DNA from: Deltaproteobacteria bacterium
GTDB lineage: Bacteria; Myxococcota_A; JAADFL01
DNA length: 58,604 nt
Direction: 5' to 3'
NCBI GenBank assembly: GCA_013152945.1
Contig: JAADFL010000121.1
Coordinates: 1-58,604 of the forward strand
Made by a program: the position numbers and the translations under genes. Numbering within the stretch: position 1 is the stretch's first letter; every line of letters starts with the position of its first letter. The notes under the pieces are model-generated. The model was not told the origin of the DNA and made no database searches. It saw only the letters and a list, made by a program, of their open reading frames with translations. Of the stretch, positions 2,092-56,232 are shown in pieces.

Positions 2092-2651
2092 GAGAACTGG
2101 TGGAAGCTGCAAGAGGGGGCGATCGAAGGGCGCAACGAGCGCTCTTCGATCGTTTCCTTAACCCCTTGATGGCTTACTGTATGCTTTCCGCCAACCATGA
2201 CAGGGAGATGGCCATGGACTTGACACAAGAAACCTTCAGCAGGGCATTTCTGAACCTCGGCAAGTTGAAAGAACCTGACCGGTTCAAGGGATGGCTGTTT
2301 TCCATTGCCGCAAACGTCTGCCGCACCCGTGGAGTCCAGGCTAGCCGGCAAAGAAAATTACATGAGAGCTTGGTACTATTGGCGCAGGTTGGCCCGATGG
2401 AAGACGACAAACATATACGTGAGATAAGGGCTGCAACTGTACGAAAAGTGCTGGAATCCGTCCAAGACGAAAAACTAAAGAAAATCGCAATGCTCAAGTA
2501 TACCGAACCCGAGCACACGACAAGGGAAATTGCAAACAAGCTCGGCATACCACACGGTACGGTGACAGTTTCACTGTCCCGGTTCAGGGCCAGGGTAAAG
2601 GCAAGACTGGCCCGGGCGATTTCAGAGGTGGAGGAGGTCCGACATGTCTGA
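2088..2651 (+). CDS. ECF-type RNA polymerase sigma factor (module 1)
   Basis: A 187-residue sigma-70-family protein with only regions 2 and 4, as in ECF sigma factors. Region 2 is at about residues 15-85 and includes DLTQETFSRAFLNLGKL and FKGWLFSIAANVCR. Region 4 is a helix-turn-helix at about 140-180 (TTREIANKLGIPHGTVTVSL). It starts at an ATG overlapping the previous stop (ATGA), and its 3' end overlaps the anti-sigma gene by 8 bp, so translation is probably coupled. It should direct polymerase to a small regulon when released by the neighbouring membrane anti-sigma factor. No promoter consensus can be assigned from this sequence alone. Confidence 0.93.
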   Translation: MRELVEAARGGDRRAQRALFDRFLNPLMAYCMLSANHDREMAMDLTQETFSRAFLNLGKLKEPDRFKGWLFSIAANVCRTRGVQASRQRKLHESLVLLAQVGPMEDDKHIREIRAATVRKVLESVQDEKLKKIAMLKYTEPEHTTREIANKLGIPHGTVTVSLSRFRARVKARLARAISEVEEVRHV

Positions 2652-3480
2652 AACAATCGAAATATGTCCCATAGGGACCAGGGAGCGCCTCTTCAAGTTG
2701 TTGAGACATGAATTGCCCGAGGAGGAACAAAGAAGGCTGTCATCCCATCTCGAGGAACCTTGCGAAACCTGTCTGTCTTTGTTGGAGGAGATTGACGAAG
2801 ATGAACTTCTCGATCAGGGTGCTGGTCCAAGGGCGGCGTTGACGGGTAAAGAAGCGGATTCGATGTTCAATCGCGTGACAGGCCGGGACCATGAAAACAA
2901 TATCAGGGAAATGCATCTGTCCAAGACATTTACTCTGCGCATTCTCAAAACGGCATTGCCGCTGGCTGCCGCCGCTGTCTTGTTGCTTGCCTTCGGCCTT
3001 ATCCATGATTGGAACGGCAAAAAAGGATCGAGACATGAATCGTACATCGGGCTCAAGGGCGGCAAAGGCCCGGAATTCCTTGCTGCTCCCGTATTAAAGG
3101 GATTCGTGGGCAAGCTCGAGGACGGCCGGCCAAAACTGGTTCGGCGGCTCCTGCCCGGGGATATCTTGACAAAGGGCGAGTTGGTGCTCCTCAAATATCG
3201 GATTTCAGCGCCATCTTTCATATATCTCATTTTTGAAGCCAAGGGTGAGAGCAGGATAATATTTTCCACCAGCACAAAGGTCCCGGCCGGAGAACATGAA
3301 TTGGCTGCCAACGGCCGGACACTTGCCGTTGATCCGTCACAGCTCGGCGACACGTTTAGACTGACATTGGTTGCATCAAGCGTGCGAGTGCAAGACATCG
3401 GAATGAAACACGGCACAAGCGGAATTTGTCCGGGTTGTGCGGCGGCAAGTATACTGATCCACTCGGAGGCGGACAGGTGA
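2644..3480 (+). CDS. Membrane anti-sigma factor with periplasmic DUF4384-like domain (module 1)
   Basis: A 278-residue predicted single-pass inner-membrane protein. The cytoplasmic part holds a zinc-binding-type motif His35-x4-Cys40-x2-Cys43, close to the HxxxCxxC of zinc-finger anti-sigma domains but with one extra residue. A transmembrane helix covers about 99-120 (LPLAAAAVLLLAFGLI). The periplasmic part from about 150 has a LLPGDILTKGELVLLKY core resembling DUF4384-type beta domains. Position directly after the ECF gene, with an 8 bp overlap, supports the anti-sigma role. Its stop overlaps the GTG start of the caspase gene (GTGA). What releases the sigma factor is unknown; the downstream caspase is an obvious candidate, by inference only. 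Confidence 0.82.
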   Translation: MSETIEICPIGTRERLFKLLRHELPEEEQRRLSSHLEEPCETCLSLLEEIDEDELLDQGAGPRAALTGKEADSMFNRVTGRDHENNIREMHLSKTFTLRILKTALPLAAAAVLLLAFGLIHDWNGKKGSRHESYIGLKGGKGPEFLAAPVLKGFVGKLEDGRPKLVRRLLPGDILTKGELVLLKYRISAPSFIYLIFEAKGESRIIFSTSTKVPAGEHELAANGRTLAVDPSQLGDTFRLTLVASSVRVQDIGMKHGTSGICPGCAAASILIHSEADR

Positions 3481-5153
3481 GTAATCGAAAAAGATATTTG
3501 TTGTTTCTTGCTATATGCAGCCCTGCACTCTTTATTGGAGGCTGCCTCGCACATTCAGGGATCAAGGGGCCGGCCCTGGTGGATTTTGCTCCTGCGGGGT
3601 TCATGGATAAAACAAGCAAGCCGAAACGAATGGCATTGGTGGTAGGTATAGATTCGTTCGAAGACAAGCATTTCAATAGTCTCAAATACGCGGTTGAAGA
3701 TGCAGAGGCTCTGGGTGCCAAGCTCAAAAAAAGTTTTGATTTGGTGCGTGTACTGGATACGCCCGGACAAACCCGCCGGGCATCCATACTCGAGGCGATT
3801 GCCGATATCGGCGAACAGGCGAATGATGCACGTGACACCGTGCTGTTCTACTTTTCTACACATGGGTCACTCGGCCGCAAGCCCGGCGGTTCACTGGAAC
3901 GTTTCCTGGTGGCCGCAGACACGCGAATGAACCTGCTGGCGCAAACAGGCATACCCGTAGACGGTCTCCTGCGTGTGGTGGACAATATACCGGCCAAGCG
4001 AAAGCTGGTGGTCCTTGCAAGCTGTCACAGCGGGCAAGGAAAATCCCGGGTTGACGATGACCTGGCCAAGGCCCTGGCCTCGCTCAAATCCGGTTCAACC
4101 CTTCCGCCGCTGGAAGACGTGAGCGAGGCAACCATAATCCTGACGGCATCGGCATTCGGCGAGACAGCGCGGGAGAGCGAAAAACTGGGGCATGACATAT
4201 ATACATATTTTTTCCTGCAAGCACTCGATCCGGCAATAGGAGATCGTGACGGTAACGGCGCGGTGACCGCGTCCGAGGCACATGACTATGCAAGAAAGAA
4301 AACCTACGAGTACACACACGGCATGCAAAGACCTACCGCGGAAAGCTCCATACTGGGACGCGATCCCATTGTGCTCACGGGTGACCCGGACAGGCCGGGC
4401 AGACCGGTCTTGTTTTCTTATGCGCCTTCTGCAGAAGGTCTCGAGGTCGATGTCGATGGAACCGCCAAGGGACTTCTGCCGGGAGGAATAGTCGTTCCCG
4501 AGGGAAAACACGAACTGGCATTGGTAGAAGCAAGGGGCGGTAAAACCCTGTTCAAAGGAGAAATATCTTTAAAACAGGGTGATACAGTGGAACTTACCAG
4601 GTTGCTGCCGCCTCCAGCAGACATTGCGCTCATGGCAGGCGGGTCGTTCGAATGGCCCCTGCTTGCTACCACGCGGGGAGAATACTTGCCGTACACTTTC
4701 GGCGCAAACCTCGGCGTACGAATGCATAACTGGCCCAATCGTGGATTCGTTCTGATGCTGAATGGGAACTATCATGGCGGTAAGGGAAGATCCTCGGGCC
4801 TTGGTGAAACCCTGCCCTTTGAATTCGATGCAGTAGGATTCGACATAGGCCTCGGCTATTCGTGGAGTATGCCCCATGATTTGTACATCTCGCCCGGCCT
4901 GTCGGTTGGAACAGAGTGGAATTTCAGAAAATTCGACACAGGCAGGTTCAGTAAACAGGAATCCATGTGGGGATTCAAATTCGGCGCGGAACTGGCTATT
5001 GAATGGGAACCTGTAAGCGGCCTGCTGTTTGTTCCAAAATTACTGGGAGGGGGAATGGTTGCCGGCCTGGGAAACGACATGGGTCCACATCCATTTATAG
5101 GCCTTGCTTTTTCTGTGGGCGGAAAGTTTCCCATGGGCCATGGATTGCAATAG
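3477..5153 (+). CDS. Lipid-anchored caspase-fold protein with C-terminal beta-barrel (module 1)
   Basis: A 558-residue protein. The GTG at 3477, overlapping the anti-sigma stop, is preferred because it places a signal peptide with lipobox LFIGGC (Cys23) at the N-terminus; upstream in-frame codons would bury it. Residues about 50-300 form a C14 caspase/metacaspase domain: RMALVVGIDSF strand, candidate catalytic His129 in FYFSTHGS and Cys183 in LASCHSGQ. An EF-hand-like loop, DRDGNGAVTASE, covers 256-267. A PEGA-like beta domain (about 310-375) follows, and the last 175 residues alternate aromatic and glycine-rich strands like a small outer-membrane barrel. The motif before Cys is ASC rather than the usual DAC. 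A protease domain facing the periplasm or cell surface is likely; substrate unknown. Confidence 0.85.
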   Translation: MSNRKRYLLFLAICSPALFIGGCLAHSGIKGPALVDFAPAGFMDKTSKPKRMALVVGIDSFEDKHFNSLKYAVEDAEALGAKLKKSFDLVRVLDTPGQTRRASILEAIADIGEQANDARDTVLFYFSTHGSLGRKPGGSLERFLVAADTRMNLLAQTGIPVDGLLRVVDNIPAKRKLVVLASCHSGQGKSRVDDDLAKALASLKSGSTLPPLEDVSEATIILTASAFGETARESEKLGHDIYTYFFLQALDPAIGDRDGNGAVTASEAHDYARKKTYEYTHGMQRPTAESSILGRDPIVLTGDPDRPGRPVLFSYAPSAEGLEVDVDGTAKGLLPGGIVVPEGKHELALVEARGGKTLFKGEISLKQGDTVELTRLLPPPADIALMAGGSFEWPLLATTRGEYLPYTFGANLGVRMHNWPNRGFVLMLNGNYHGGKGRSSGLGETLPFEFDAVGFDIGLGYSWSMPHDLYISPGLSVGTEWNFRKFDTGRFSKQESMWGFKFGAELAIEWEPVSGLLFVPKLLGGGMVAGLGNDMGPHPFIGLAFSVGGKFPMGHGLQ

Positions 5154-5344: not shown

Positions 5345-8300
5345 CTATTGGTTCAGCTCCATGTAGAAATAGTCCCACCCTCCGAGCCTGCCGTCGAGCC
5401 AGTACAGGATTCCGTCTCCTACAAGAGGCTTGCCTTGGTAGAACTGGTTCCTTGTCACCCTGTCCAGTTTGGGCGCTGAGCCGTCTTTGGGTATGGTTAC
5501 AAGCATTACCTCCCTGTTACCACTAATTGATGTTTCAAAAGCCAGGTAAGGAAACTTGAACGATGGGCCGGCTATCCATTCTTCGCTTTTGAAGATCTCT
5601 GTCTTGACCGTACTCGAAAGATCCTCGAGTATCAACGAATAGACATATTTTTCGTCCGGCAGGCCACGGTTTTCAACCTTGTGTTCGACCCAGCATGCGT
5701 AATTATCACTCAGGGCCACGGTTCTTTCATCCGGTCCGAACGAGTCGGCATCCCACTTGTTGTATTTGTCCAACAACAGGGGAGGTGGACCCTTGTCAAA
5801 GTCGTACAGGTAGAAAGAGATAGGTTGTTTTTCATTCGAACCTTCATCCCGTAAGCCGAAGAGCAGTCGATCTCCATCCAAATCGAGCCCTTCTCCTTCT
5901 ATCTGGATGGTTCCGTTCTGATTGTCCTGTATGGTTTGAGGAGGTGATGCGAGATCAACATCCCGGCAATAGAGCCCCCATGGAGGCATGCCCCCGCCTG
6001 CCTGCAAGTGAAAGTCCTGCCAGCATATACGTTGGTGGTCCAGTGCGCAGTCAGGAACAACGGTGTCGGGATCATTTACTTTGACTGTAGTGCCGGTTTG
6101 TCGATCCAATAGGAACAGGTCCACTCTGGAACCTTGAACCTGCTGGTACGCCATGTGCGTATCCGTAAGTCCGCAAACCCTGACATTGGACTGCACTTTT
6201 ATGCTTTGAATTATTGAACGAGTCTTGTAGTTGTAACCCGTTATTCCCTGGAAGCCGGGCCTGGAATCCGCAAACGCGATTTCCCGGCCATTGACAGCGC
6301 CCCATGCCTGACTCCCTTCCAGGGGCAACAGCCAGGCGCGCTGGGCCACTTCATTTAACTCGAGGCTCTTTGTTTTTCCGTGTGAGCGTCTATACGCCAC
6401 GAACCTGCCGGAAACAGCCGGCTCTTTCTCTCCATCGATGTCCGAGGTAATGTCCCTGTTGCTCCCTGAAGAAAAGTCATGGAGAATAATGCTCGGGTTT
6501 CCGTTTGAATAATCCTCGTACACCAGGAGGCCGTCGCGTAATCTCGGGCTGTTCTGCTCCATTGTAGTACCTTCGTCATAGTTCACGGGTCCCAGGCTTT
6601 GATCAGAATCGAGGTCGTACGCCATGATCATAGGAAATACGGTATCTCCGCCTGACCAGGCAACATAACGGCCGTCGGTACTTACATGGAAGTTGTCCAT
6701 CATCAATCCTGCAGGATCGGCTATGACTTTTTTGGCCGCAGTGCCGGTATTGTATGAATATAGTGTATCATCTATGGCATATGCAAGGATGCCGTTCCAG
6801 ATGTCCAGTGACCGGCAGGAACTTTCGGAATCTCCATTATCAACCAGTTCTACATCAGCCGCACCCTTGTGCCAGATATATATATTCGCGCCGTCGTTTT
6901 GTAGGCAAAATGCAGCCACTTGGCCATCCCATGCAAATGACCTGATATCACCGCCTGTGGAGGGAGCAGGAAGCACGGTAACACCTGTTTGAAAATCAAA
7001 TAGGTAGAGCCAATCGCGTATCCACATCAGGGAGTTGGCGGCAAGCCTTATTCCCCAAATGATTCCATTTCCGGCAAATCCCATTTGATCCACTTTTTGA
7101 ACCTGGTCGGTAAAAAGGTCCTGAATGTATATATCGCTTGACCATTCTTTCTGGGTGCTATCAAAAATGTTTTGAGTATAAGCAAAGTACCTTCCCCAAA
7201 CATCGAAGTTATCATCCACGTTGTCATTTCGTTCGTTCATGACTTCAGTAGAAGACTCGTCTATCTTGGAAACCGACGTGCTGCTTACATTGCCTGCTTC
7301 GTCGACAGCCCTGAACAGGAATATGTTTTCCTTGTCCTGATCAAGTTGTACAGGAAAACTGTTATCCTGTCCCGGTGTTATTTCATGGAAAGTCCCCTCT
7401 TGTCCCACTGCGAGTTCATAGTGAAGCCGGTTGGTGTCTGTGCTTGGTTTTGCCAAGAGCAGGTACGCGGTATCGGCATTCACGGTGCCTTCGGGAGGCA
7501 ATAACGTGGGCGTGGTTGGCGGCGTAGAATCTTCGACAACCGTGATTTCGGCTGCATTGGAAAGATTGCCGGCCAGGTCCTTTGCCCTAAGTCGTATCCT
7601 GTGTTCATTGTCCGGAAGGAGTTGAACCGGGATTTTGAGCGATCCATTTCCCACGCCACTGTTTTGCCAGGGACCGTCGTTTATCTTGATTTCATAGGTG
7701 TCGAAATTCTCATCAATGGAAGGCGAGGCCAGCAGCAGGTCCAGGGAATCCGCGTTTACAACCATCCTGGTATTCATGAAAACCGGGTCGGTAGGAGGAG
7801 TGGAGTCTTCCACCACTACCACACTTTCCTCCGCCCCTGCGTTGCCTGCAGGATCCAGTGCGCGCACACGTATCAGATTTCCCCTGTCCTGCTCCAATTT
7901 GACCGTGAATGGAAAATCCTGCCGGGTGAGTTGGATCCAATTCGCCCCCTGTGTCCTCAACTGGTACACAAGGGCCTGGCCGCTGTTGTCCGTGGAAGGG
8001 GCCAAGAGGGATACATCTATCTGGTCTGCATTGATGATCTGTGCAGGTACGTGTAGCACGGGTGGAGTAGGCGCCTCGGTGTCCAGAATAACCGTGTTGT
8101 CGGATTCGGTGTCGGTGTGATTGCCGGCTCGATCATAGAAACGCACATAAACCTTTTGAGGCGTATCTACTGAAGCCAGGAGGTGAATGACCGTGGGTGA
8201 AAAGGATTGTAAAGGCTCGTTGAAGTCATCATCTGCACTGACGACCATGTAGGTTCCGGACGGATCGTCCACTGAAAGTTCAACCGTGACAGACTCCGAG

Positions 8301-10168
8301 TTCGTGTAATTTCCTGAAGCGATGTGCACCAAGGTATCCTGTGGGGGTATACGGTCCAGGACCACCTGGGCCGCTGATACCTTGCTCCTGTTTCCCGCCT
8401 GGTCTGCAAGTTGAACGAAAATCCTGTGCGGCCCATCGCGGTCATCCAGCAGGAAAGGTTTATTCGAACGAAACGTCTCCCACTGGCTGTTTCTGAAGGT
8501 TGGCGTTTCCGATATTCTGAAATAATCGGCTCCGTCGGCATCTATACTCAGGTTTACCAATCTCTTGTTTACGAAATCACCCTCATCTACTGTAACAAGA
8601 CTCAACTGGGGAGGCTCGGTGTCAACGGTAACGGAAGCGGAATATTCAGGGCTTTCATTTCCGGCCGCATCCTTGAACATAACATACATGGTATGTTCCC
8701 CATCCCCGGAGAAAACCCATGAAACCAGGTTTGTCATGGGCACGTACTCGGTGGCCGGACATCCCTGTACCTCGCAAAGCTTGAATGCAAGAGGCGTGTC
8801 ATCGGTTGCATCAAGCTTCACAACTGTCGTTCTGGAACCAAGTATTCCCGTACCATCTCCAATTTGGATCGGCATGTCACCCGGAACCGGCGGCTTGGTA
8901 TCGACAGTAATTTCCTTTGTGACTGTTTGTGAAATATTTCCGGCCCTGTCTGAAAAACGAATCGCCACGCTGTGCGTGCCGTCCTGCTTGAAGGCCAGGG
9001 CCTGCTGCAGGGTAAAATCCTGCCAGGGCTGGTCCTTCAGTTCCTCATCGATCGCGAGTTGCATGGAGTTTACGCCGGATGTCTCGTCGTATGCGTTTGC
9101 AAAGAGCCCCACGTTCAGATCATTTGAATACGAACTGCCTGATCCGAGCTGGACATCCACTACATGGGGCGGCTTCGTATCCAGAATTATCGATGACTCG
9201 ATACGATCGGATTCGCGGTAATCAGTGGTACCGCAACCTGTTTCACTCACGCGGAATTTGGAATATACGCTCTTTATTCCATCCTTGTCTTTGTCCCCGG
9301 CTATCTTAAAAGATTTCTTGGGCGAATACTCCTCGTACTCCGCGCCTGAAAAATCAGGTGACACGGATAACATCATTTCGCTTGTGTTGAAGGCCAGGAT
9401 GGTCAGGTCGACTGTTCTCTTGTTTGTGTACTTGGCATTGTTCTCGATTTCGACCAAGCCCGTTACAGGAGGAAGTTGTATGGTCTCGGCGATGTCCGTG
9501 CCTCCTCGCTCCACCTTGATTCCACAAAGCGAGCGTTTGGCGAATCCATCCCTATCCGCACTCAAGTCATAGTCTCCCACCGGGACATCGTTAATCGCGA
9601 ATGTACCGTCCGGGGCCGCAATTCCTGCATATGCAGAACCCAGGGCAGGCAGGCCCCCGCCTTGGCCCCCGCTTGGAACAACCTGTATTACTGTTCCTCC
9701 CGGACTTTGATGTTCCCGGTCGCCTAAAGACAAGAGACTTACCGTTCCGCGTATGGTTGCTCTTATCACCTTGAGGTCCACCTGCCCGATGTTGCGAACA
9801 GAACCTGGTGAGATCTCCACTATTCTTTGCGTATCCTCGTAACCCTCTGCCTTGAATGCCAGTTCGTACACTCCGGCAGGCAAGCCGTCGATTTCGAACT
9901 TGCCGTCCGGCTTTGGATTACGCTGCAGCCCCAATTTCGGAACACTAACCGTAGCTTGGCCGGGATTCCCTGCTGCCTCCATGACGAGACTGCCTGTTAT
10001 TGTCCCCTTGGCCTGTTGGTCCAGCGGGCTTGATGGATCGTACGGATTATTTGCGCTTATCGTCTTTCCGCAAGACAATAACAAGGGTATTGTAGAAAAC
10101 GCCAATAAGATACCAAAGTTCAGTTTGAAACCATTTCTTGTTTCCGGCTGTCTCTCACCAGTATCCAT
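5345..10168 (-). CDS. Giant Ig-like repeat and beta-propeller lipoprotein
   Basis: A predicted 1607-residue surface or periplasmic lipoprotein. Of three near-adjacent ATG codons, the one at 10168 has the best spacing from GGAGG. The signal peptide ends in a lipobox LLLSC (about Cys33). Two carboxypeptidase-regulatory-like domains come first (GKFEIDGLPAGVYELAFKAEG and GTFAINDVPVGDYDLSADRDG). About nine bacterial Ig-like modules follow, marked by repeated VDTKPP/VDTEPP/EDSTPP and DRAGN/DEAGN signatures. The C-terminal 600 residues look like a TolB-type propeller (DLFTDQVQKV, VSGRFVAYRR). It converges on the first caspase operon, so it is separately transcribed. The architecture suggests adhesion, glycan binding or surface display; no catalytic motif was seen. 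Confidence 0.88.
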   Translation of the reverse strand: MDTGERQPETRNGFKLNFGILLAFSTIPLLLSCGKTISANNPYDPSSPLDQQAKGTITGSLVMEAAGNPGQATVSVPKLGLQRNPKPDGKFEIDGLPAGVYELAFKAEGYEDTQRIVEISPGSVRNIGQVDLKVIRATIRGTVSLLSLGDREHQSPGGTVIQVVPSGGQGGGLPALGSAYAGIAAPDGTFAINDVPVGDYDLSADRDGFAKRSLCGIKVERGGTDIAETIQLPPVTGLVEIENNAKYTNKRTVDLTILAFNTSEMMLSVSPDFSGAEYEEYSPKKSFKIAGDKDKDGIKSVYSKFRVSETGCGTTDYRESDRIESSIILDTKPPHVVDVQLGSGSSYSNDLNVGLFANAYDETSGVNSMQLAIDEELKDQPWQDFTLQQALAFKQDGTHSVAIRFSDRAGNISQTVTKEITVDTKPPVPGDMPIQIGDGTGILGSRTTVVKLDATDDTPLAFKLCEVQGCPATEYVPMTNLVSWVFSGDGEHTMYVMFKDAAGNESPEYSASVTVDTEPPQLSLVTVDEGDFVNKRLVNLSIDADGADYFRISETPTFRNSQWETFRSNKPFLLDDRDGPHRIFVQLADQAGNRSKVSAAQVVLDRIPPQDTLVHIASGNYTNSESVTVELSVDDPSGTYMVVSADDDFNEPLQSFSPTVIHLLASVDTPQKVYVRFYDRAGNHTDTESDNTVILDTEAPTPPVLHVPAQIINADQIDVSLLAPSTDNSGQALVYQLRTQGANWIQLTRQDFPFTVKLEQDRGNLIRVRALDPAGNAGAEESVVVVEDSTPPTDPVFMNTRMVVNADSLDLLLASPSIDENFDTYEIKINDGPWQNSGVGNGSLKIPVQLLPDNEHRIRLRAKDLAGNLSNAAEITVVEDSTPPTTPTLLPPEGTVNADTAYLLLAKPSTDTNRLHYELAVGQEGTFHEITPGQDNSFPVQLDQDKENIFLFRAVDEAGNVSSTSVSKIDESSTEVMNERNDNVDDNFDVWGRYFAYTQNIFDSTQKEWSSDIYIQDLFTDQVQKVDQMGFAGNGIIWGIRLAANSLMWIRDWLYLFDFQTGVTVLPAPSTGGDIRSFAWDGQVAAFCLQNDGANIYIWHKGAADVELVDNGDSESSCRSLDIWNGILAYAIDDTLYSYNTGTAAKKVIADPAGLMMDNFHVSTDGRYVAWSGGDTVFPMIMAYDLDSDQSLGPVNYDEGTTMEQNSPRLRDGLLVYEDYSNGNPSIILHDFSSGSNRDITSDIDGEKEPAVSGRFVAYRRSHGKTKSLELNEVAQRAWLLPLEGSQAWGAVNGREIAFADSRPGFQGITGYNYKTRSIIQSIKVQSNVRVCGLTDTHMAYQQVQGSRVDLFLLDRQTGTTVKVNDPDTVVPDCALDHQRICWQDFHLQAGGGMPPWGLYCRDVDLASPPQTIQDNQNGTIQIEGEGLDLDGDRLLFGLRDEGSNEKQPISFYLYDFDKGPPPLLLDKYNKWDADSFGPDERTVALSDNYACWVEHKVENRGLPDEKYVYSLILEDLSSTVKTEIFKSEEWIAGPSFKFPYLAFETSISGNREVMLVTIPKDGSAPKLDRVTRNQFYQGKPLVGDGILYWLDGRLGGWDYFYMELNQ

Positions 10169-10317
10169 CATTTCCTCCATTGCTTTTCCATTCGGTGTTT
10201 TTTACATCGAATGACAATTTTCCATATTAATACTTTTTCAACCTCAAGTCGATATTGACATCAGCGAAAATCGATAAATAGGAAGCCTCATGGTTCAAAA
10301 AGACTAAATAGAGCGAT

Positions 10318-48403: not shown

Positions 48404-50218
48404 TTAAAGATCATTTTCCTTGAGAAACCTGTACAGGGTTGCTCTCCCTACCCCGAGGAGTTTGGCTGCCTTTACCTTGTTCCCATTCGTTTCTTCAAGG
48501 GCTTGTCTTATTGAAGGCAAGTCGAGCCTCTTTCTCTTGCCGGTTTGGGCGCGATCTTTCCTGTCATCGAGGTCCATGGGAATGTGCCAGCTATTGGCTC
48601 CTCCCATGATTTCAGGAGGTAAATGGCCGAGTTGTATCTTTCCGTCTTTACAATAAATGGAAGCGAATTGCATGGCGTTTACAAGCTCCCGAACATTCCC
48701 GGGCCAATGATACTCCATGAACCGGTCCATAACCTCGGTGGAAACAGATTCAATGTTGACATGGCTCTCTTTTCTGATGGATCCGGCTATCCGCTCCACA
48801 ATCAATGGAATATCCTCTTTTCTCTCGCGCAAAGGGGGCAGGTGTATTGGAACTACGCAAAGGCGGTAGTACAAATCTTCTCTGAAGATTTTTTCGTGGA
48901 CGAGTTTCTTCAAATCCTTGTTGGTGGCGCTCACAATACGCACGTCCACGGAAATTGATTTCTCGCCTCCAACCTTTTCAAAGCTCTGTTCCTGTAGCAC
49001 ACGCAGCAGGTGAACCTGCAACGACGGGTACAATTCACCGATTTCGTCCAGGAACAATGTGCCGTTGTCTGCCAGTTCGAAACGTCCCTTCTTTTCACGT
49101 ATTGCGCCGGTAAATGCCCCGCGGACATGTCCGAACAGTTCGCTTTCGAGAATATTTTCAGGCAATGCACCGCAATTGATCGGAACAAAAGGATTATCCT
49201 TTCGGGTGCTCTCCAGGTGGATGGCCCTGGCAGCGAGTTCTTTGCCGGTTCCGCTTTCCCCGCTGATGAGCACAGGGTACCTCGATTTCGCGACTTCCCG
49301 GATACTAAAGAAGATCTCCTGCATGACCCTGGATTGACCTACCATTTCGTGGAAAACCGGCTGCCTGGAATGCTCCATGCGGAGATTGTTTACCTCGGTG
49401 ATGTCTTTGATTGAAAGAATCACTGCAGGTCTGTTGCCTGGATTCAGTTCGATAGCAGCAGTGGACATGCGTAGTTTTTTCTTTACCCCTGAAGGAGTTT
49501 GAACAGTGGTTTCGTACCTTCTATGGCCTGGTGGCGTGGCAGGGCCGTACTCGAATGGGCATTCTCCCTTGCACAAGCCATTGGGTGCGAATATTCCATG
49601 ACAATCCTTCCCAAGTATCTCGGTTTTCTTTACCCCGGTTATCCTCTCTGCAGCCTTGTTGAATAAGAAAACCCGGCGATGAGGATCATGCACGATTATG
49701 CCTTCTTCCAAGATATCCAGGAGATTTTCGAGGTGATTCCTCTTGTCCATGAAAGCCTGGATGTATCCATGATTGAACAGGGCTTCGATCTTTATTTGCA
49801 ATTCGTTTGAAATCGCTCGTAGTACCGGCAACGCTTTCTCCCGGTCTCCTGAAACAGGTTCGTATTCTTGTAAAGGCCAGTACAGGTAAAAGGGGTCTCT
49901 TTGAAAAATCGATGGAGATCCATCCAGCCCCATCTTTTGTGAATCCTGGCAAAATTCGTGACTCGACCGGGTTAGCGTTATAATAAGATCGAACTCGTGA
50001 TTTTTCAGGTTGCTCAAGGATTTTGGATGCAGGTCCTGGGCATCGATGTTTCTCTCCCTTAATACCTGTATTGATAGAGGATCCAGGATACCGGCTTGAA
50101 GGCCGGCGCTTGTCACTTCAACAAGGTTATTGCCCATGTGGCGTACCAATGCCTCTGCCAGTTGACTCTTACAGGAATTGAAATTCCCTAGAAAGAGCAT
50201 CTTGAATTTCTCAACCAT
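48404..50218 (-). CDS. Sigma-54-dependent activator with degenerate LMW-phosphatase/ArsC-like sensor and PAS domain
   Basis: A 604-residue protein starting at the ATG with AAAAAGG upstream. Residues 1-145 align with low-molecular-weight tyrosine phosphatase/ArsC folds, but the P-loop reads LFLGNFNSCKSQLAEAL: the nucleophile Cys is Gly11 and the invariant Arg is Lys17, while Cys16 and Ser18 are kept, so catalysis is unlikely. A Cys-containing PAS domain follows (about 165-285, DCHGIFAPNGLCKGECPF). The AAA+ core has GESGTGKELAAR, GAFTGA (the sigma-54 contact) and DEIGEL, and a Fis-type HTH (NKVKAAKLLGVGRATLYRFL) ends it. It probably binds upstream of the divergent sigma-54 promoter at 50414 and senses redox, metal or an oxyanion through the front domains (inference). 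Confidence 0.93.
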   Translation of the reverse strand: MVEKFKMLFLGNFNSCKSQLAEALVRHMGNNLVEVTSAGLQAGILDPLSIQVLRERNIDAQDLHPKSLSNLKNHEFDLIITLTRSSHEFCQDSQKMGLDGSPSIFQRDPFYLYWPLQEYEPVSGDREKALPVLRAISNELQIKIEALFNHGYIQAFMDKRNHLENLLDILEEGIIVHDPHRRVFLFNKAAERITGVKKTEILGKDCHGIFAPNGLCKGECPFEYGPATPPGHRRYETTVQTPSGVKKKLRMSTAAIELNPGNRPAVILSIKDITEVNNLRMEHSRQPVFHEMVGQSRVMQEIFFSIREVAKSRYPVLISGESGTGKELAARAIHLESTRKDNPFVPINCGALPENILESELFGHVRGAFTGAIREKKGRFELADNGTLFLDEIGELYPSLQVHLLRVLQEQSFEKVGGEKSISVDVRIVSATNKDLKKLVHEKIFREDLYYRLCVVPIHLPPLRERKEDIPLIVERIAGSIRKESHVNIESVSTEVMDRFMEYHWPGNVRELVNAMQFASIYCKDGKIQLGHLPPEIMGGANSWHIPMDLDDRKDRAQTGKRKRLDLPSIRQALEETNGNKVKAAKLLGVGRATLYRFLKENDL

Positions 50219-50307
50219 GAACACACACCTTTTTCAAATTAATAAATAGCACACCCTATCCAAATTGGGCAATCAATGATAATAGAGACGACAAGACAGT
50301 GCGCCAG

Positions 50308-51609: not shown

Positions 51610-52365
51610 TCAGTTCTTGCCTGGTTCCAGTGACTCGCACACTACCCTGTATTGTTCGGTTTCAGGCCCTTGATCCAATATCACGCTCCTGTCCACCAGG
51701 TCGAAATCAGTAAACAGACACACCTCTGCTTTTTCCTCACCATCCAATGTAAACGCACCTTGAAGCGGCACGAGGTTACCGCATGTCAGGGGATTTGAAG
51801 GGTGGAGAGGAAAGTAGATTTCATCTCCCTGAAAGATCGCAAGGTCCCAGTACAGGCCCTCATTGAAAGGACATGTTACCCTCAACATGAACCGGTCGCC
51901 CGGCTCAAAATCTTTCGGGGCGTTTACCACCGTGCCCTGTCTCTCTCTTATTAGGGCCATGGCAAGGTCTCCTCCTTTGACATGTATCAAGGATCCTGGA
52001 AAATATGATGAAGCACCATCATGGTTGTGGGCGGACCTATGGCCTGTCCCTGGAATTATCACTAACAGCAAGAGTGCTGCAATTGCCAGCATTGGCGTTG
52101 CCGCCAGGGCCGTTCGCTTGATTGCACGGCGATCAAAAGAGAAAATCGTAATCTTGCCGCCCATGGCCGGGGCGGTTTCCAAAGGCTTTAGCCGGCGTTC
52201 GTCGCTCCTGATGTAATCGAGTTTAGAAAAACACTCCTGACAAGAAGACAGGTGCCGCTCTACTGACTCGGCATCGGCTGAATCGAGTTCGTTCAGGTTG
52301 TACATCTCGAGCTTCAACCATGAAACCGGTTTAGTGCATGCACCTTTCATGTTGTCATGCTCCAT
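51610..52365 (-). CDS. Membrane anti-sigma factor (module 2)
   Basis: A 251-residue single-pass protein. The cytoplasmic zinc-finger motif His38-x3-Cys42-x2-Cys45 matches the usual HxxxCxxC of anti-sigma domains. A transmembrane helix lies at about 85-105 (AATPMLAIAALLLLVII). The periplasmic domain (FEPGDRFMLRVTCPFNEG, FPLHPSNPLTCGN, LQGAFTLDGEEKAEV) has the same GD...FP...LD plan as the module 1 anti-sigma, with extra Cys residues. Its gene overlaps the end of the ECF sigma gene by 19 bp. It ends the second caspase operon. Confidence 0.85.
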   Translation of the reverse strand: MEHDNMKGACTKPVSWLKLEMYNLNELDSADAESVERHLSSCQECFSKLDYIRSDERRLKPLETAPAMGGKITIFSFDRRAIKRTALAATPMLAIAALLLLVIIPGTGHRSAHNHDGASSYFPGSLIHVKGGDLAMALIRERQGTVVNAPKDFEPGDRFMLRVTCPFNEGLYWDLAIFQGDEIYFPLHPSNPLTCGNLVPLQGAFTLDGEEKAEVCLFTDFDLVDRSVILDQGPETEQYRVVCESLEPGKN

Positions 52366-52823
52366 TGCCCTTGATCCAGGTTGTTGAGCCTGGATCGTAT
52401 TTTTTTCAGGTGCTTAAAGACTGTTTTTCTCGTGGTGCCCAGCAGCCAGGCTATCTCTTCCTGGTCCATGTCGTCGAGGAAACGGTAAACAAATATCTCC
52501 CGGGATTTCTTATCGAGCCCTCCAATGAGCTTGACCAGAATATCCATGTCCAGGGGCCTGCCGGGTTCGTTTGATGTAATCGAAATGTCATCGACGGGAC
52601 GGCTTCTTTCCAGCAACTCCCTCCTCTTTTTACGATTGCGAAGTAGATTGAGGCACCTGTTTGTACACGCTCGGTACAAGTACGGCAGTTCCACGCCCGG
52701 GGTTTCCTTTTCTATTAGTTCAAGGAAAAGTCCCTGCACCACGTCCTCCGCGTCCTGTTTGTTTCTCAATATTCGTTCACATTTCCGAAGCAGGGCCGGG
52801 CCGTATTTCTCATAAGCCTCCAT
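52347..52823 (-). CDS. ECF-type RNA polymerase sigma factor (module 2)
   Basis: A 158-residue ECF sigma factor. Region 2: RILRNKQDAEDVVQGLFLELIEK and LPYLYRACTNRCLNLLRNRK. Region 4: LDKKSREIFVYRFLDDMDQEEIAWLLGTTRKTVFKHLKKI. It differs clearly in sequence from the sigma factor at 2088, so the two modules probably control different promoters. The ATG at 52823 lies three bases after the stop of the Cys-rich lipoprotein gene. It is probably held inactive by the overlapping anti-sigma gene product. Confidence 0.93.
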   Translation of the reverse strand: MEAYEKYGPALLRKCERILRNKQDAEDVVQGLFLELIEKETPGVELPYLYRACTNRCLNLLRNRKKRRELLERSRPVDDISITSNEPGRPLDMDILVKLIGGLDKKSREIFVYRFLDDMDQEEIAWLLGTTRKTVFKHLKKIRSRLNNLDQGQWSMTT

Positions 52824-52826
52824 GCC

Positions 52827-54023
52827 CTACTTGCATACACCATTCCTCTTTCCCAGGTCCAGGCATGCCGGATCGCCACAGGCATCAGGGCCAAGACACA
52901 CTTTCGGGCAATCCGAGGAGGCGCTGCATCTTTGGCCTATGAATGCACAGAGCGTCAAACCTTGTTCAGCCAGGCATTCATTGCTGATGCAATCATCGTT
53001 GAAAAGGCATGGGTCGCCTGTTTTACCTGCGCCCAGTCCCGGCGCACACTGAAAGGGCGGATCTATGAATGCATAGGCATCGTCCATGCCCGCAAGAGAC
53101 CTTTTTGTACATGCCTGTCCCAAGGGGCAGTCCTGGTCCGAGCAGCATGACGAACACGTTCCCTTGCAGCATATACCTGTACTACATTCCTCGGATGTGA
53201 CGCATCTTTCACCCATGGCCTTTTGAGAGGACAAGTCACAGCGGGTTGTTTCATGTTGGTTTTCATAGACAAAAGAGCAGGCTTGGCCCTGGCCGCAGTC
53301 ATTGCTATCTTTACATGGGGTGCACCTGGCCCCGTATTTCAGGTAGCTATCGGATTCCGAATCCAAGTTCGTGCAAAAACCGTTCGAGCACTGGCTGTTC
53401 TTTTCGCAAGGAGTGCCGTCAGGCCTGTTGTCGAGATCAAGAGGTGTTCCCATGCAATCCATGCCGTCTTGTACCCTTATTCTTGCGAGAACAGCCTTCC
53501 CGGGTCCTGTCTTCCGTACTATGAACCTCACCGAAGAGTACCAGGTAGGAGCCTTGATTTTGTAGTCGACAGGAGTCCAGTCACCGGATGGTATCGGATG
53601 GGAATACTCCAATGTTCCATCGTCCTGGAAATCCATTTCGAGGAAAAGCTCGGCCTGGTCGTCTTTCTTGACCAACAGGTCGAATTCGAAACACTTGGGA
53701 AGACCGAGTGTGTCATCCAGGTTGGCAAGCTGGCTTAGTTTTACGTCGTTACCGACAAGTGCTACGCCATAATCCTTTTCATGCCACGTAGGAACCCGCT
53801 CTATCTTGCCTTCTACGTCCCATGAACAAAGCGAATCCCCGCACCAGAGGTCGAAATCGGGGTTCTGTATCAGGTCGTGACCACAGCCGTTACCCCGGAG
53901 GAACAATATGGCTACAATGGACAATATTGTTTTGCCAAGCCAGTCAGGAAGACCGTATTTCTTTTTATTCCCCGATTCATTCGCGCCTGCATCCTTTCTT
54001 GATAAGAGATTGTAATTATTCAT
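52827..54023 (-). CDS. Cys-rich surface lipoprotein (module 2)
   Basis: A 398-residue protein. An unusually long, charged N-region precedes a signal helix ending in FLRGNGC (Cys47). A domain resembling a carbohydrate-binding/galactose-binding beta-sandwich (about 50-180, NPDFDLWCGDSLCSWDVEGK, ADWTPVDYKIKAPTWY-like strands) is followed by four Cys-rich modules (CVTSEECSTGICCKGTC, CSDQDCPLGQACTKR). Its ATG overlaps the caspase stop (ATGA). It takes the place of the propeller lipoprotein in module 1 and is a candidate ligand-binding partner. Confidence 0.86.
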   Translation of the reverse strand: MNNYNLLSRKDAGANESGNKKKYGLPDWLGKTILSIVAILFLRGNGCGHDLIQNPDFDLWCGDSLCSWDVEGKIERVPTWHEKDYGVALVGNDVKLSQLANLDDTLGLPKCFEFDLLVKKDDQAELFLEMDFQDDGTLEYSHPIPSGDWTPVDYKIKAPTWYSSVRFIVRKTGPGKAVLARIRVQDGMDCMGTPLDLDNRPDGTPCEKNSQCSNGFCTNLDSESDSYLKYGARCTPCKDSNDCGQGQACSFVYENQHETTRCDLSSQKAMGERCVTSEECSTGICCKGTCSSCCSDQDCPLGQACTKRSLAGMDDAYAFIDPPFQCAPGLGAGKTGDPCLFNDDCISNECLAEQGLTLCAFIGQRCSASSDCPKVCLGPDACGDPACLDLGKRNGVCK

Positions 54024-55747
54024 ATTGCACCTCTCACTCCAATGGAAAAAGTGAATCCTCCGTCGTCATGCGTGTCACCCACCAGGTTCTTCAGGGCCGG
54101 AGCAAATACGTAACCGCCTTGAACGAACATTCCAAAATGCTGCCAGAACATGGTGCTCAACCCTGCGGACACAGAGATGTTGTAACCATAGTGATATTGA
54201 ATATCGTTTTCTCCATTCTCGACCGACATGTGGGATTTGACAATCGTCATTCCCCCGCCTGCCTGTATGTACGGTGTCAACCAGTAGTCCAGCAAGGGCA
54301 GGGATGCCCTGGCTTCCAGGCTTATCCTGTGGGCCGTCCAATCGAATCTGGATTCTTCGTTGTTCCCGGACTGGCTGTTGATCATTCTCTTATAGTCGCC
54401 TTGGTCGAGCGTACTGTAGGTCAGGTCAAGGGCAAGATTCCGCGACAGGTGGTAAAGCAGGGATGCCTGGAGGTAGATATTGTTTCCACTGAAAAGCTGG
54501 GCCTCGTAGCCAAAGGTCTCCAGCCGGTCCGTATACTTGTCCGTGCGACCCAGTGTTCCACCGAATGCAAGCTCCATGGAAAACACCGGATCCGGCCTTC
54601 CCAAAGCAGCAGCCTTGATGGTGGTTTTGGCTTCTTCCACCGGCTCGCAGTGATTTGTTTCAAGTGTTTTGGTTTGGTTTGCGTCAAGTTTGAAAGAGCA
54701 CTTTTTTGCATGATTGTCTTGTTTCAAGATGGCGCTGTACTTTCCAGGAACCAGGGCTATTCGCACAAGCCCGCCTTCGGCCTTAAATACCTCTGCAACT
54801 ACCATGCCCGACGGCCTTGAATACACCAGCAAGTCTCCTTTCATAGCAGCAGGCAGCTCCAGCCTGGAACTGGCCCTTGAAGGGTACGAGAGCACCATGT
54901 CGCCCTTGCCGCGAAGATCTGTCTGAAGAGTCACGTGTTGACTTCCGACAGCAGTCGATGCAGTAGAGATCAATGTCCTGTTGTATGCATAACTATAGGC
55001 CTCCGACAGGGTCACACGGCCGTCACCATTACTATCCGCAGCGCCTCTGAGTCCACTAACCAAGTGGTTGGTAAAGAAAGAACCGCCTATGTCATCCGAT
55101 TCCTGGGACAGCTCGTTCGCGGTGCTGGATGCCATTACCACAGTGCCCTTGGTGTTGAGTCCTGATACGAAATTATAAGAGAACGACTTTGCCGGTTTTG
55201 CTCCCTTAATATTCGAAATGGCACCTGACTGGCAGGCATCCAGTATTACCAACTTGACTGTCGCAGGCATGGATATTAGTTTTTGCTTCAATGTTGCAAG
55301 GCTTATCCGATCTCCTCCAAGATCCAGGTCAGAGGCCCTCGCATGGCCGGAGTAGTAGAAGAGAAAAATGCTTTTTTCATCCTGTAATGACAGGGCCTGA
55401 AGTTTTTTAGAGATCTTTTTGATCTGGTCCATTACCTCGACCGCAGATGGATTCGACAGGTGCTTCACGTTTTCGGGCCGGTACCCTCCCAACTCCTCCA
55501 GCACCTGGGCCAAACGTCCGGCGTCTGCATCTGGATACTTGAGTTCTTCCTGGCCCTTACCCGGCACGGCACTACTGACTAGCAGGGCAAAGGATTGCAG
55601 GGATTGATCCGGCATTGTTGATGCTGTTTCTCCTGCAACCGATATATCGGCCTGGAGAAACGATATGAGGCAAATAAGTATCAAGCTATCCCGGGGTTTG
55701 AAGACTCTATAGGGATAATGCATACATTCTGTTGCACTTGACATCAT
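54020..55747 (-). CDS. Secreted caspase-fold protein with C-terminal beta-barrel (module 2)
   Basis: A 575-residue protein; the ATG at 55747, eight bases after GGGAGG, gives a signal peptide (SLILICLISFLQADISVAG). The caspase domain (about 50-280) carries candidate catalytic His135 in FYYSGHA and Cys172 in DACQSGA, close to canonical motifs. An EF-hand-like loop, DSNGDGRVTLSE, is at 238-249, and GSQHVTLQTDLRGKGDMVLS matches a common end of myxobacterial caspase-fold proteins. A short beta domain and about 180 residues of barrel-like strands follow (LFSGNNIYLQASLLYHL, ISVSAGLSTMFWQHFGMF). It is the first gene of module 2. Confidence 0.88.
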   Translation of the reverse strand: MMSSATECMHYPYRVFKPRDSLILICLISFLQADISVAGETASTMPDQSLQSFALLVSSAVPGKGQEELKYPDADAGRLAQVLEELGGYRPENVKHLSNPSAVEVMDQIKKISKKLQALSLQDEKSIFLFYYSGHARASDLDLGGDRISLATLKQKLISMPATVKLVILDACQSGAISNIKGAKPAKSFSYNFVSGLNTKGTVVMASSTANELSQESDDIGGSFFTNHLVSGLRGAADSNGDGRVTLSEAYSYAYNRTLISTASTAVGSQHVTLQTDLRGKGDMVLSYPSRASSRLELPAAMKGDLLVYSRPSGMVVAEVFKAEGGLVRIALVPGKYSAILKQDNHAKKCSFKLDANQTKTLETNHCEPVEEAKTTIKAAALGRPDPVFSMELAFGGTLGRTDKYTDRLETFGYEAQLFSGNNIYLQASLLYHLSRNLALDLTYSTLDQGDYKRMINSQSGNNEESRFDWTAHRISLEARASLPLLDYWLTPYIQAGGGMTIVKSHMSVENGENDIQYHYGYNISVSAGLSTMFWQHFGMFVQGGYVFAPALKNLVGDTHDDGGFTFSIGVRGAI

Positions 55748-56232
55748 GGCGAATACCTCCCTTGTCTGCCTGTCTAACAAGTTAACACCCAAAGAGCAGA
55801 TCATGGGAACCAGGACCGCATTTTTTATTTCCCGGGCGACCGGACAGGGCCGGACCCGAAAAGGGGATGGGTGAAGAGTCTCAATTGATATTATTGGTGT
55901 TTTATGGTTGGAGTTGGGTTCGCCGCGTCATGAAAATGAAATTATCCAAATATTGAAATAACAGGGACCGTCTCCGGGTGGAAGGATAACAGCAAGTTCC
56001 AGGTATATATTTTCCATTGGTTTCAAGGCCTGTCATTTTTCCCCATTCTCCCCAATATCCTATGACTCCGTTATGTGGTGTTGTGTGCAGGGTATAGGCT
56101 TGAAGTTGACAGTCAGCACCAGAGGTTGGATTATGCCCGCATTCATGGCCGTCCGCCCCTGGGGGCGCGGACTGGGACGCGCAAAGCCATCTGTTCTATA
56201 TTGATGTGCGATGATTGATAAAAGGAGGAATT
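55748..56232. other. 485-base divergent intergenic region
   Basis: It lies between the module 2 caspase gene and the endonuclease/phosphatase-family gene and must hold both promoters. No gene was recognised. A hairpin-like sequence GTCCGCCCC-TG-GGGGCGCGGAC sits at 56151-56172, about 60 bases before the next start. Confidence 0.5.

Follow-up and report, generated by a model that had tools for sequence, protein, structure and literature searches.

Bacterial caspase homologues are common and, to our knowledge, natural substrates are known for very few of them. In myxobacteria, sigma-70 genes share operons with caspase-homologue genes, as described in a 2012 paper (Asplund-Samuelsson 2012, PMC3501461). 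There, four of the five metacaspases of M. xanthus are sigma-linked, and linked cases are also given for Anaeromyxobacter, Haliangium, Sorangium, Ralstonia and Fibrobacter. In type III-E CRISPR, a protease of the caspase clan frees a sigma factor: Csx29 cleaves Csx30 and lifts the inhibition of an ECF sigma (PMC10028731). Among open-licence papers, nothing was found that links a metacaspase to an anti-sigma factor or to DUF4384.

The window analysed here, a stretch of 58,604 nucleotides, comes from a draft genome of 218 contigs (4.84 Mb, 94% complete). It carries at 51610-55747, on the minus strand, a four-gene operon that we call module 2. By its gene map, its Pfam matches and the conservation of its order in relatives, module 2 is a sigma-70/metacaspase operon of the type described in 2012. 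We propose, at about an even chance, that it is a conserved, self-transcribing envelope-signalling operon in which the caspase is the site-1 protease acting on the anti-sigma factor and the freed sigma re-transcribes the operon.

Module 2 and its proteins

The order caspase-barrel protein, Cys-rich lipoprotein (X), ECF sigma and anti-sigma, proposed in the first-pass annotation, was recovered with all four open reading frames. The overlaps announced with it were found between caspase and X (4 bp) and between sigma and anti-sigma, where the length depends on the anti-sigma start (4 bp for 52350, 19 bp for 52365), but not between X and sigma, which lie 3 bp apart. The start at 52350 is probably the true one, as it is favoured by the N-termini of orthologues.

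The caspase gene (54020-55747, minus strand; ATG at 55747, preceded by GGGAGG) encodes a signal peptide, a Peptidase_C14 domain (PF00656, 2.1e-14), a beta sandwich and a barrel, for which the Pfam match was weak. Its AlphaFold2 model (pLDDT 86) contains a signal-peptide helix, a caspase fold, a beta sandwich and eight long strands. The caspase part of the model superposed on Arabidopsis metacaspase-4 (Z 23.3 over 209 residues) and, with H135 and C172 intact, the protein has the fold of an orthocaspase (peptidase C14). The barrel, eight-stranded and OmpA-like in the model, matched the OmpA transmembrane domain in Foldseek (E 2.9e-8, TMt 0.74) and NspA in an HMM comparison (8.4e-5). Since both ends of an even-stranded barrel lie in the periplasm, the caspase domain should be periplasmic. 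From sequence and model we predict an exported caspase, anchored in the outer membrane through its barrel, with the catalytic domain facing the periplasm.

The second gene (52827-54023, minus strand) encodes X, a probable lipoprotein and a subtype-specific member of the operon. A Pfam search with X returned no family; its conserved N-terminal domain, of DLWCG type, is not covered by Pfam, and its Cys-rich tail is optional. The sigma factor (52347-52823, minus strand), assigned from Pfam and its tree, is of the ECF type, a short protein (158 aa) with regions 2 and 4 only (PF04542 and PF08281, both above cut-off, 1.5e-10 and 7.6e-11). Elsewhere in the window, at 48404-50224, lies the gene of a sigma-54 activator that combines PAS, AAA and Fis parts with an N-terminus similar to a low-molecular-weight phosphatase/arsenate reductase (FLGNFNSCKSQLAEALVRHMG). 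The usual catalytic Cys seems to be absent from it, and this activator is perhaps a sensor derived from a dead enzyme.

Linkage to sigma factors and a separate subtype

The first-pass annotation implied two modules in this genome; we counted six, modules 1 and 2 being two of them. A PF00656 search returned five caspases, all five adjoining an anti-sigma gene and a sigma gene. The caspase of the sixth module, on contig C141, was missed by this search and was located because the neighbouring anti-sigma bears the Lys-Gly motif described below; it is a protein of 763 aa with a PEGA-like domain (L300:5432-7723), and it also adjoins a sigma and an anti-sigma gene.

PF00656 is carried by 30 of 57 related genomes, the source genome among the 30. 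In the 29 others, an ECF sigma lies within 2.5 kb of 30 of the 74 caspases, in all 30 cases on the same strand and upstream of the caspase, versus about 1.7% expected from the 605 sigmas in about 175 Mb of these genomes. Given this excess and the fact that all six caspases of the source genome adjoin sigma and anti-sigma genes, the grouping is not due to chance. A scan of contigs from GTDB genomes, with a profile built from five caspases because an alignment of 12 was too diverse, gave 392 relatives. The best 80 of the 392 belong to Myxococcota, Fibrobacterota, Acidobacteriota and Spirochaetota, and nearly all of these 80 lie in sigma/anti-sigma/caspase operons. The His-Cys dyad is kept in all the sigma-linked caspases that were scored (143 for His, 142 for Cys) and is lost in 5 of 43 caspases without sigma. 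That every scorable sigma-linked caspase keeps the dyad is new here.

The canonical order outside module 2 is sigma, anti-sigma, caspase. This canonical operon is common in Fibrobacter and its relatives, rumen genomes included (L161, L176, L177, L182, L200, L201, L203, L204, L207, L208, L210, L211). At another locus (L173:4929-8323), one sigma/anti-sigma pair is followed by two caspase genes in tandem.

The order of module 2, with X between caspase and sigma, is a minority among the best 80 of the 392 relatives. It recurs at about 25 loci, which are spread over ten or more families of Myxococcota. When 377 genomes of the phylum were searched for X, 21 clear loci with at least ten family codes came out, 19 of them inside a module-2-type operon; at the two others (L245/L301 and L263/L302), no caspase or sigma neighbours were detectable. 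These neighbourless X homologues lie at L301:10682-12244 and L302:7156-7635, one of them near a contig end. One of the 19, a variant locus (L247, contig C432 of genome G197), holds two X genes, in the order X, sigma, anti-sigma, caspase, X. In quick trees, with SH-aLRT rather than bootstrap support, all sigmas of the module-2 type fall into a single clade (support 100), apart from those of the canonical order; the same holds for the anti-sigmas and for the caspases. The sigma and the caspase of module 1 group with other sequences, outside these clades.

Module 1 lies on the plus strand and consists of a propeller lipoprotein (214-2091), an ECF sigma (2088-2651), an anti-sigma with a divergent DUF4384-like periplasmic domain (2644-3480) and a caspase-barrel protein (3477-5153) with a proposed GTG start at 3477 and a lipobox (IGGC) after the signal peptide. 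Homologues of its propeller lipoprotein were looked for in the other modules and none was found. Convergent with module 1 is the gene of a 1611-aa lipoprotein with Ig-like repeats (5345-10180), whose propeller-like C-terminal part resembles the module 1 lipoprotein.

The first-pass annotation had described module 2 as a functional unit, and a real, recurring unit it is; the three clades also contradict a chance meeting of the four genes. It had further described a second copy with rearranged order and a swapped lipoprotein, a replaceable input. The different lipoproteins within this genome, a propeller in module 1, X in module 2 and another Cys-rich protein in the C9 module, speak for two reshuffled copies with an interchangeable lipoprotein. 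Nevertheless, we hold this to be very improbable: the module-2 type is an old, separate clade with a fixed order and a fixed X, module 1 belongs to a different one, and the near restriction of X to module-2 operons already contradicts free exchange. With 19 of the 21 clear X loci in that operon, X has been co-inherited rather than swapped in. Accessory lipoproteins vary between subtypes but are fixed within the module-2 subtype.

The anti-sigma factor, its Lys-Gly pair and the promoter

The anti-sigma gene (51610-52365, minus strand) encodes a cytoplasmic zinc motif (C10/H38/C42/C45), one transmembrane helix and a periplasmic DUF4384-like domain of Ig type. Its zf-HC2 match (19.4 bits) is under the Pfam cut-off; zf-HC2 was found in 20 of 44 relatives. 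With the HX3CX2C motif (H38, C42, C45), a transmembrane helix and an adjoining sigma gene, it belongs to the class I (zinc) anti-sigma factors, and it is predicted to hold its cognate sigma via the zinc domain. In the model (pLDDT 81), the zinc domain is helical (helices 16-54), the transmembrane helix spans about 79-103, and a disordered linker leads to a periplasmic domain of Ig-like fold, for which PDB searches gave generic Ig-like relatives only (best Z 8.5, no Foldseek E <0.001).

The module 2 anti-sigma gives no match to DUF4384 (PF14326), curated cut-off or otherwise, and joins the family by profile comparison only; it is hence called DUF4384-like rather than a member. Of 44 relatives, 23 match DUF4384 at E 0.1 or better (best 2.4e-8). 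The periplasmic domains, whose common plan was already noticed in the first-pass annotation, belong to one family, each subtype joining the canonical profile (hhalign probabilities 95.7 and 90.9). A direct hhalign comparison of the module 1 and module 2 domains gave no link, and a profile from the relatives alone misses both domains directly and finds only L117 and L118; the link between the two modules thus runs through intermediates. A profile of the anti-sigmas, with those of the source genome excluded, found the domain fused C-terminally to caspases in four proteins (7e-11 to 8e-6). That the anti-sigma periplasmic domains form one DUF4384-like family, and that DUF4384 is fused to caspases elsewhere, is new; the gene fusions suggest that the domain touches the caspase.

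The anti-sigma alignment comprises 148 rows, related sequences included, of which 126 are distinct and 103 remain at 70% identity, a thinning that does not change the result. Among the 103 non-redundant sequences, K130 is the most conserved column, followed by G131 (codons at 51973-51978, minus strand). Position 130 is K in 98, R in 4 and a gap in 1, so that every one of the 102 scored sequences has K or R there; position 131 is G in 98, A in 2 and S in 2. About two thirds have Arg at position 128. The linker around this pair, which lies about 23 residues past the transmembrane helix, is hypervariable, and K130 is placed by the model at the border of the low-confidence linker. The four caspase-DUF4384 fusions serve as a control (n=4): in each of them the profile match begins downstream of the Lys-Gly pair. 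Orthocaspases cleave after positively charged residues, Arg or Lys (PMC6426788). From this specificity, the conservation of Lys/Arg-Gly, the hypervariable linker, the fusions lacking the pair in their match and the intact dyads, we infer a cut site R-x-(K/R)-G. That the most conserved site of these anti-sigmas is a juxtamembrane Lys/Arg-Gly, the mark to be expected of an orthocaspase cut, is new here.

Regarding the promoter, a Gibbs-type de novo motif search was rejected, as it captured GC-rich coding bias; exact enumeration and a held-out matrix test were used for this reason. Among the spaced 5-mers enumerated upstream of caspase genes of the module-2 type, TCCCA-N14-CGTGT recurred at seven loci, the window not among them, versus 3 to 4 loci in shuffled controls. 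A matrix trained on 14 other loci scored the window site at 25.8 bits and the next best in the window at 15.2. This site, an ECF-type promoter GTTCCCA-N14-GGTGTTA (55783-55810, minus strand), lies 35 nt upstream of the caspase start codon. The pattern GTTCCCA-N14-SGTGTTA, a putative operon promoter that is also new here, has a single exact match in the 4.84 Mb genome and is conserved in orthologues. With one mismatch, 5 matches (operon included) were counted versus 9 for the reversed-pattern control, so that no wider regulon emerged at this level. Most likely, the sigma acts on its own operon and perhaps on little else. If this operon is its entire regulon, caspase and X must be output too.

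The proposed switch, its alternatives and known systems

In the mechanism that we favour, the anti-sigma would span the inner membrane, retain the sigma by its zinc domain and show its DUF4384-like domain to the periplasm. When a cue arrives, possibly sensed through X, the caspase would dock on this domain and cut the anti-sigma after the Lys/Arg of R-x-(K/R)-G, just outside the membrane. Further proteolysis would release the sigma, which would transcribe the operon from its promoter and provide more caspase, X, sigma and anti-sigma, a positive feedback loop that carries its own brake. On this reading, which we rank first, the caspase acts as the initial protease of the switch and, being controlled by the operon's sigma, also belongs to the output. 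Slightly more tentatively, and at somewhat less than an even chance, we extend this to other phyla: in Myxococcota, Fibrobacterota, Acidobacteriota and Spirochaetota, secreted orthocaspases might be the dedicated site-1 proteases of a widespread class of ECF switches and cut membrane anti-sigmas at the near-invariant R-x-(K/R)-G, the module-2 protease being anchored in the outer membrane and controlled by its own sigma.

In the main alternative, caspase and X would be output only: a DegS/RseP-like system would free the sigma upon envelope stress, the sigma would induce a periplasmic caspase with other protein targets or a part in cell death, and Lys-Gly would cap the periplasmic domain structurally. 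The single known target of the sigma favours such a role, as does a promoter that places caspase and X first, with no further exact site in the genome; moreover, metacaspase roles in myxobacterial cell death are discussed in PMC3501461. We nevertheless consider it rather unlikely, since it leaves unexplained why Lys is replaced by Arg alone, why the site falls outside the match in fused DUF4384 domains and why such fusions exist. Cleavage by the caspase is favoured by the Lys/Arg-only site, by the fusions and by the C141 caspase, found through the motif. The favoured mechanism as a whole also draws on the unity of the operon, the intact dyads, the autoregulatory promoter and the precedent of Csx29 and Csx30.

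Another possibility, which we regard as distinctly improbable, is that the anti-sigma is a dual inhibitor whose periplasmic domain restrains the caspase, K130 being a pseudosubstrate, and whose cytoplasmic domain restrains the sigma, both being freed by the cue. DUF4384 in cis with caspases would fit an inhibitory or prodomain role, and a basic P1 residue also suits a pseudosubstrate; yet a pseudosubstrate should resist cleavage, and here the linker is flexible and the residue that follows the Lys is small.

Several points count against the mechanism that we favour. The Lys-Gly pair may have a structural role or be the target of a different protease, and the fusion control comprises four members. 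The one clear target of the sigma is its own operon. From the outer membrane, the caspase would have far to reach to cut close to the inner membrane. The module 2 anti-sigma has no direct DUF4384 hit, and the anti-sigma families are highly divergent, modules 1 and 2 being joined via intermediates. If caspase cleavage is nevertheless true, the role of metacaspases in myxobacteria is reduced to a point-mutation question, and for a large class of these caspases, in several phyla, the substrate and the bond that is cut can be named and a transcriptional output given.

Beyond the operons themselves, the accessible part of the 2012 paper (PMC3501461) contains no anti-sigma, DUF4384-like domain, Lys-Gly site, barrel, X, promoter, mechanism or module-2 order. 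The RseA/DegS system resembles module 2 in its membrane anti-sigma, in a first cut near the membrane on the periplasmic side, for which module 2 has a candidate, and in sigma release as the output; it uses a serine protease, whereas in module 2 a dedicated, operon-encoded caspase is the candidate for that place. EACC2/TRADD-N caspase systems likewise have a caspase domain beside an ECF sigma gene but other partners, and the accessible part of their description mentions neither a membrane anti-sigma nor an outer-membrane caspase (PMC8195603). In the genomic context of ECF54, CHAT, subtilase or carboxypeptidase proteins have led to a proposal of proteolytic control, although ECF54 is proposed to work without an anti-sigma factor, unlike module 2 (PMC8999054).

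The Craspase/CASP system is similar in that a caspase-clan protease cuts an anti-sigma-like protein and frees an ECF sigma, whose targets include its own locus (PMC10028731). Craspase is a cytosolic, RNA-triggered TPR-CHAT protease with the CRISPR effector Cas7-11, whereas module 2 would combine a periplasmic C14 caspase with a membrane anti-sigma. Among the open reading frames of the window around the operon there are no CRISPR genes, and the protease is a C14 caspase with a barrel. If our reading is true, module 2 would bring to ordinary envelope signalling a path from caspase to sigma that is known from a CRISPR system.
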